A DNA stretch of 64,000 bases from an uncultured Nitrospiraceae bacterium (GTDB taxonomy: Bacteria > Nitrospirota > Thermodesulfovibrionia > Thermodesulfovibrionales > Thermodesulfovibrionaceae), in the NCBI GenBank assembly GCA_937139565.1, contig CAKZQH010000072.1:1-64000 (forward strand), in the 5' to 3' direction. Every line of letters starts with the position of its first letter. Position 1 is the first letter of the stretch. The notes under the pieces were generated by a model. It was not told the DNA's origin. It was given only the letters and a program-made list of their open reading frames with translations, and did not search any database. Below, one piece after another: positions 1 to 1,020 of the stretch. The translations under genes were made by a program, and so were the position numbers.

Positions 1-536
1 AAAAGAAGCATCGTAGTAGTAAAGACATTACAGAGGGATTCCAGTTCAGGGAAAGTAGTTTGCAGAATCCGTTTAATATCGTTTTTGGTGGAAGAGATAA
101 GATGGCAGATAGATTCTCTTTCTCTGGCAATATCTCTGAAGTCTTTAGTGTCCTGAGAGAGGGAGAACTGTTCAATGGAATCCCTGTGGGCAAGAATAAA
201 CCGTGCAATAGTGAGAGAGTCTTTCTTGTCAGTTTTGGTTTTACGCAAAGACAGCTTTGCAAAATTAGAGATCAGAAGGGGGTTAATGATGGCGGTGTTA
301 ATATCTTTAGAAGACAGGTAAGAGAAGAGATTGATATGGTAGCATCCTGTGGACTCCATAGCAGCAATGACATTGGAGAGGTCTTTACAGTTAGAAGTGA
401 TAGCCTTCAAAAGTTCGGAGAAACCCTTTCTATCCATAGAGGTAGAGATAGAAAAACAGACATTACCTTTGCTATCAAGAGCTGTGGCAGAGAAGGAATC
501 TTTGGAGACATCAATACCGACAAACAGATTACTCAT
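1..536 (-). CDS. IS110-family transposase (DEDD), N-terminal part, runs off the window
   Basis: Minus-strand frame from ATG at 536 reads MSNLFVGIDVSKDSFSATALDSKG...MESTGCYHINLFSYL...TKTDKKDSLTIARFILAHRDSIEQF...; the GIDVSKD, E-S-T-G and K-T-D-K-K-D motifs are typical of IS110 RuvC-like domains. No stop before position 1. Confidence 0.93.
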   Translation of the reverse strand, partial: MSNLFVGIDVSKDSFSATALDSKGNVCFSISTSMDRKGFSELLKAITSNCKDLSNVIAAMESTGCYHINLFSYLSSKDINTAIINPLLISNFAKLSLRKTKTDKKDSLTIARFILAHRDSIEQFSLSQDTKDFRDIARERESICHLISSTKNDIKRILQTTFPELESLCNVFTTTMLL

Positions 537-559
537 GGCAAAACCTCCATAATGACATA

Positions 560-735
560 TATAGACGAGGCAGGGGAAGCCTCCCGGCCAATCCTCCATG
601 GTGACAAGGGTTCAGAGACCCAATCAACCTATAATGGCTATGGGAGGCAGGGAACAGACTGCTTCGAGGGTTCAATGACCCAGGTGAAATGGAGTTCTCC
701 TGCCTGTCCAACTTTAACGGGTAAAACCCGCTTAT
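560..735 (-). ncRNA. candidate IS110 bridge RNA
   Basis: Upstream of the transposase on its strand. Hairpin CGGGT-AAA-ACCCG 718-730; stem-loop 645-705 (11-bp stem with one bulge) holding terminal hairpin GGGTTCAATGACCC 668-681; second stem-loop about 583-644 holding GGGTTCAGAGACCC 608-621; hairpin GAGGC/GCCTC 567-583. Confidence 0.65.
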
Positions 736-1020
736 ATAGGCTTTATAACACAAATTCTTAGTAGGAGGGAAAATGGAAGAATCCTATACCTGCTATCAAA
801 GCGAAAGCATATGAACTTTTACAACTCTTTAATATGAGGTTTTACAATGAGACACAATATTCTTGACAAGTGCCCTTATTATTAATGCTTTCATAAAGCA
901 CCTCCAATATATGCTGTTATATCTTAGCAATGCCATTGTTCTAAATACAACTAAAATTTAATAAACTGTTAGATTGTATAAAATTTTTTCTGGTATATTA
1001 AATTTTATAGTTCAGGGAAA

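Follow-up and report, generated by a model that had tools for sequence, protein, structure and literature searches.

An IS110-group bridge RNA in a Nitrospirota draft genome and the Shine-Dalgarno-directed insertions of its relatives

Elements of the IS621/IS110 group carry, in their left end upstream of the transposase gene, a bridge RNA composed of a 5' stem-loop and two loops with cap hairpins, which hold the left and right target guides (LTG, RTG) and the left and right donor guides (LDG, RDG) for a CT core; they also form a promoter at the circle junction and, as known from IS621, use handshake guides (PMC11208160, PMC11208158). In IS1111/seekRNA elements, which likewise have RNA-guided DEDD transposases, the RNA lies downstream of the transposase gene and the guide order is reversed (PMC11187229). 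Here we analyse an insertion sequence at the beginning of a 64,000-nt stretch (the window), itself the start of contig C72 (CAKZQH010000072.1) in the 1.99-Mb draft genome of an uncultured Nitrospiraceae bacterium (GCA_937139565.1), and the candidate RNA that precedes its transposase gene. This RNA being upstream of the gene, the IS1111 group is excluded. A third system, IS900, reportedly targets translation-initiation signals, judging from the title of Doran et al. 1997 as cited. On its complementary strand, a frame named hed extends across the whole element, with neither a ribosome-binding site nor a start codon of its own (PMC8141618).

The window element shares the features listed above for the IS621/IS110 group, with the donor guides and the junction promoter predicted from sequence, and its transposase lineage is related by sequence to IS621 and ISCro4, even if the similarity is only distant (PDB match, 5.7e-16). 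PF01548 and PF02371 are both present in complete relatives, and the C-terminus of the window copy falls beyond the contig. There is good support for placing it in the IS110 bridge-RNA group. It differs from IS621 in two further respects: IS621 targets REP elements while the close relatives of the window element target the Shine-Dalgarno (SD) region, and a stop-free frame runs antisense to the transposase gene. From the stem covariation, the guide–target matching, the insertion sites and the stop avoidance, all established computationally, we conclude with high confidence that the region encodes an IS110-group bridge RNA, from a lineage aimed at SD sites and endowed with a stop-free antisense frame that may provide ribosome cover.

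The structure was studied in an alignment of 34 left ends (165 positions), taken from relatives whose transposase identity is as low as about 39%. Of the pair cells in the two stem-loops, 96.0% are kept, against 91.1% in shuffled alignments, 58 cells over 12 pairs are changed on both sides, against 19, and the covariation score is 0.266, against 0.168, none of the 500 shuffles matching the observed value for pairing, double changes or covariation. Sliding the partner columns by 1–3 positions destroys the signal, with pairing at about 53% for a shift of one. The top covarying pairs belong to the cap hairpins of the two loops (double-sided changes in 12 and 13 sequences) and to the stem of the target-binding loop (TBL; 9 sequences). 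Conservation is high in the donor-binding loop (DBL) and low precisely at two half-loops, both in the first stem-loop, a pattern also described for the IS621 bridge RNA (PMC11208160). An earlier, sequence-only reading of the region had claimed the bridge RNA of an IS110 lineage and had named beforehand, as its tests, stem covariation among copies and loop positions varying with the flanks of differing insertions; the 34 relatives display the former, and the latter was found in both target half-loops (see below). All the hairpins and stems that it had described (the 5' hairpin, GGGTCATTGAACCC, GGGTCTCTGAACCC and the TBL stem) were located on the minus strand, the stem at 645–655/694–705 having 11 pairs and a single bulged base at 698. 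Its mention of a probable thermophile is consistent with the named relatives, which are metagenome-assembled genomes (MAGs) of Thermodesulfovibrionales/Nitrospirota, but it is not proven by them.

One sequence alone proves nothing about the structure, since the single-sequence fold of the window copy is only mildly above chance (z = -1.66; 15 of 200 shuffles equal or better) and in the minimum-energy fold the partner of the 5' GGCAGG is the CCTGCC of the 3' end, which is not the TBL arrangement. A closing stem, P0 (5' AAAGG / 3' CCTTT), received weak support (117/5000), and an Rfam scan returned no match at 560–735. In the copy L041/L014 (contig C63 of the genome G083), the bridge RNA has lost its donor-binding half and the remainder, with an intact target loop, is fused to the transposase gene; the other copies of that genome have complete ends.

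With the core taken as CT, the LTG was compared with the 9 nt to its left and the RTG with the 6 nt to its right. The LTG matches its own flank at 61%, against 39% when guides are swapped (n = 40 elements, z = 8.7), and the RTG at 72%, against 33% (n = 27 elements, z = 7.3), with 0 of 20,000 permutations in either case, while the core complement in the RTG is correct in 26 of 27. Among close relatives only, and with right flanks grouped by genome, own guides match at 4.84 of 6 positions and swapped guides at 3.48 of 6 (0/20,000). The correspondence can be followed from one guide to the next: ACAGGAG goes with CTCCTGT, GAGGAG with CTCCTC, TAAAGGAG with CTCCTTTA and GAAGCAG with CTGCTTC. In L051 and L038/L190, the core is CA instead of CT; the RTG of L051 (..TG) fits the CA core of its own right flank, i.e., a natural core switch.

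On the donor side, the guides can be matched to the element ends by sequence only (ATAG(G)TTGATT with ATAG-TTGACT, and GG-AG with CT-CC), the donor being near-constant across the family, and the TBL base adjoining the core is T in 32 of 33 sequences, the complement of the donor A. Right ends terminate in ATAGTTGA-CT, a few bases past the transposase stop in most relatives, including most of those of the SD type, and left ends start with CT-CCTAC. Once joined, the ends of nearly all complete elements read TTGACT, 17–18 nt, then TTATAA/TATAAN; as the -35 TTGACT sits in the right end, this putative promoter would be complete only on the circle, so that the circle junction is predicted to form it, as in the IS110 group. 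Together with the stem covariation, the guide–target covariation, the CT core and the handshake guides, this predicted promoter bears out the bridge RNA proposed by the sequence-only reading.

In most close relatives, the guides are CCATTTCAC-CT and AAAGG-AG, i.e., the complement of TAAAGG-AG-GTGAAATGG, which is a full SD sequence followed by a start codon. An open reading frame (ORF; at least 60 codons, or at least 40 where it exits the available sequence) begins on the opposite strand, at a distance of 2–13 nt from the core, in 35 of the 50 distinct insertions of the lineage (those with this left-end type), compared to 5–10 of 50 in neighbouring 12-nt control bins and 0 of 11 in relatives with other left ends; among the 15 insertions devoid of such a start, 8 come from this genome or from elements with other guides. 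In the draft genome G083, 15 copies are found in unrelated flanks that have the SD/start motif alone in common. The genes downstream of the insertions encode MreB, the ATP synthase A chain (atpB-like), an amidase, a lactate permease, a ferritin and a polysaccharide export protein, and in at least 14 of 46 right flanks a same-direction ORF (at least 60 codons) ends no more than 60 nt away, an operon-like arrangement. Read from the host gene, the first bases of the element (CT-CC) give TAG-TAG-GAGG, hence an SD sequence is rebuilt before the displaced gene. SD guides and an antisense frame without stops recur in more distant elements of the same genus (L017/L020; 39% identity). L062 and L059, at 94% protein identity, come from MAGs labelled Thermoplasmatota archaeon and Desulfofervidaceae, which reflects either a recent cross-domain transfer or a binning error.

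As for the window copy, the left ends on contigs C72, C42, C26 and C91 of this genome have a common sequence only from CT-CCTACTAAG inward, which sets the element boundary at 766–767, and a non-coding left end of about 230 nt precedes the transposase ATG. Its RTG is CGAAGCAG, and the right ends on C32, C95 and C85 all continue with CT-GCTTCA; the rebuilt junction, CCATTTTCC-CT-GCTTCAGTC, has the CT core and an RTG match of 7/7. Joining the left flank on C72 to the right flank on C32/C95 yields ..TTCCATTTTCC-CT-GCTTCAGTC..GCATAAGG, and a related unoccupied site on C79 (L007) reads ..TTCCATTTTCC-CT-GTTTCAGTC..GCATAAGG; this comparison, in which the core is common to both ends, points to a scarless insertion at CT. 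Contig C44 was considered as the empty target and ruled out by the C32/C95 right flanks and by C79 (L007), the right half being GCTTCAGTC. The sequence family of the target recurs on several contigs and, because a mutator-family transposase fragment (PF00872) lies near the C95 right end, we take the target to be the tail of a transposon repeat of the mutator type. The right guide is re-aimed, from AAGGAG to GAAGCAG, with the antisense frame retained, and the copy fits a translation-initiation target on the start-codon side only.

This antisense frame, in register with the transposase gene, spans 296–471 codons in complete SD-type elements, against about 100–120 in other relatives. The longest one begins 12 nt in from the right end and stops at the very last bases of the left end and, in 8 of 11 SD-type left ends, the frame is open across the bridge RNA to the final few bases or to the sequence limit. 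A functional protein, i.e., a hed-type gene expressed via host signals after insertion, could account for it: the IS900 frame offers a precedent, and an ATG lies 13 nt downstream of the host SD (AAGGAG) in L013, L059 and L062. We nonetheless consider this unlikely. Conservation at the 4-fold sites of the sense gene does not clearly exceed that of non-SD relatives, and in that comparison no antisense conservation beyond the constraint of the sense gene was seen; 4 columns of the antisense alignment are invariant, whereas the sense alignment has many tens of them, and the AF2 mean pLDDT is 25.7 for the antisense product versus 77.1 for the transposase at equal alignment depth. Stops that are selected against without selection on a protein fit the passage of ribosomes, from which we infer selection for such passage, with insertions being tolerated. 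The arrangement at the right end fits it too, the host SD being followed by the ATG mentioned above or, in L020, by a coupled 13-codon leader ORF that overlaps the ATG of the antisense frame as ATGA. No outward promoter or terminator was found in the left end of the window copy; such a promoter may have gone undetected, and the frame may after all yield a peptide.

A functionless frame, due to codon bias or common ancestry, is more doubtful still, even though open elements do cluster on the tree. Antisense stops correspond to the transposase codons TTA, CTA and TCA and, since synonymous shuffling within the gene keeps the counts of these codons and is unable to test an in-register frame, host codon usage served as the null instead. 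In the host, TTA and CTA together encode 42% of Leu, and TCA encodes 29% of Ser, which leads to an expectation of 15.5 such codons in the 178 of the window copy, whereas none is seen (P = 4e-9). Over 66 distinct relatives, the counts are bimodal, with 0–1 in ten SD-type elements, from several phyla and down to 37% GC, versus 5–36 in the rest, and a neutral frame would decay fast. On the tree, the open trait requires at least three changes and is found with SD guides only (10/13 versus 0/24), an association that is suggestive, not proven.

It is very improbable that the positions at ribosome-binding sites reflect survivorship, insertions elsewhere having been purged, in place of aiming by the RNA: some degree of survivorship must act, but guides and flanks correspond at the level of single positions and change together from one genome to another, the relatives with other guides sit elsewhere (0/11) and the orientation is fixed. 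A structured 5' untranslated region or promoter of the transposase without any guiding, for which the location directly upstream of the gene and an RNA taking in its start would speak, is already contradicted by the guide–target covariation in both half-loops and at the core and handshake positions, and can be dismissed.

Returning to the SD-aimed bridge RNA, several points weigh against it. The donor loop is nearly constant, which leaves too little variation for donor covariation to show, the assembly contains only part of the window element, the right end of which was assigned via flank similarity to C32/C95, and RNA expression, recombination and read-through are steps that we infer. Moreover, the antisense frame is broken inside the left end in L013, L059 and L067, and near the right end it has ATT, not ATG, in L040/L041, while three distant relatives with GGAG-type right guides are devoid of an open antisense frame. 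Finally, the link between SD guide and open frame rests on 2–3 independent contrasts, and the phylogenetically controlled test has low power.

Under the proposed mechanism, the joined ends of the excised element would form the promoter transcribing the bridge RNA, the first loop of which would pair with both target strands around the CT core and the second with the joined ends of the element, the DEDD transposase then recombining target and donor without a scar. The target loop of the lineage would normally spell the SD/start-codon region, leading to entry at host ribosome-binding sites, always antisense, where the CT-CC of the element start would restore GGAGG ahead of the displaced gene. On the opposite strand, a single frame would have been cleared of stops, beginning about 12 nt in from the right end and closing with the TAG of the rebuilt site, so that the host SD at the right end could load ribosomes whose stop abuts the rebuilt SD. 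These ribosomes may keep the host transcript covered across the 1.4-kb insert, bridge-RNA gene included, and thereby limit polarity, before translation passes on to the displaced gene. Whether insertion is in this way transparent, with an SD-aimed RNA, a rebuilt SD and purged codons, mreB and atpB tolerating it and the IS900 hed frame serving the same purpose instead of encoding a protein, is in our opinion evenly balanced.

Judged by its described architecture, IS900 appears to be the nearest system. Both are characterized by insertion at translation-initiation signals (here, by the close relatives) and by a complementary-strand frame spanning the element. The present elements differ in that they belong to other phyla and AT-rich hosts, where chance antisense openness is improbable, their aiming is traced to bridge-RNA guides, and their antisense product shows no signs of a protein. 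No paper that links IS110 bridge RNAs to SD targets turned up in a search of the open literature, which is not proof of novelty; as far as this literature shows, the RNA-guide basis of translation-initiation targeting, its recurrence in other phyla and a codon avoidance favouring passage over a gene are new. Natural bridge-RNA programming would thus extend to a motif found ahead of thousands of genes, and the continued expression of the host's downstream gene would be a testable reason for a constraint on the non-coding strand of a transposase gene. It would also give a concrete answer to what hed is for, a question that is decades old. Elements sitting before essential-looking genes without evident loss are leads for ribosome-binding-site-directed, expression-preserving DNA insertion.

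Table 1. Features of the IS110-group element at the start of the window (window coordinates).
Feature	Position	Strand	Basis or remark
IS110 transposase, N-terminal 178 codons (DEDD RuvC domain)	3..536	-	PF01548, 5.3e-37; truncated by contig start
Stop-free frame, in register with transposase	3..764	+	through bridge RNA to TAG TAG (759-764) abutting GGAGG; runs off contig
Bridge RNA (predicted transcript)	560..735	-	alignment and covariation; ends inferred from -10 box and conservation
DBL, stem CCTCCC/GGGAGG	580..647	-	alignment, covariation
DBL handshake guide GA	592..593	-	covaries with target positions 6-7 across family
RDG region, ends GG-AG (would pair with left-end CT-CC)	594..606	-	sequence; analogy to IS621
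DBL cap hairpin GGGTCTCTGAACCC	608..621	-	double-sided change at pair 118/128 in 13 sequences
LDG ATAGGTTGATT	622..632	-	matches right end ATAG.TTGACT; sequence
TBL, stem GGCAGG.GAAC/GTTC.CCTGCC	646..704	-	alignment, covariation
TBL handshake guide TC	657..658	-	complementary to donor GA beside core; first base T in 32/33
RTG CGAAGC-AG (relatives: AAAGG-AG)	659..666	-	7/7 to right-end flanks CTGCTTC of this genome
TBL cap hairpin GGGTCATTGAACCC	668..681	-	double-sided change at pair 49/57 in 12 sequences
LTG CCATTTCAC-CT	682..692	-	covaries with left flank; 9/11 to own flank CCATTTTCCCT
5' hairpin GCGGGTTTTACCCGT	717..731	-	in part of family only; sequence and fold
Putative -10 box (TTATAA/TATAAA)	742..748	-	junctions of relatives; right ends of this genome
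Core dinucleotide CT, element end; flank CCATTTTCC outside	766..767	-	four left ends; joined site compared with L007

Next to the element, at 1021–1875 on the plus strand, lies an ORF with a Clp1-type P-loop domain (PF16575, 1.7e-35), encoding a polynucleotide-kinase-like protein. Farther on, at 2400–2750, the window holds a cluster of palindromic repeats of the type TCACTGCGAGG...CCTCGCAATGACA, and the same type adjoins a repeat on C44 (L003).
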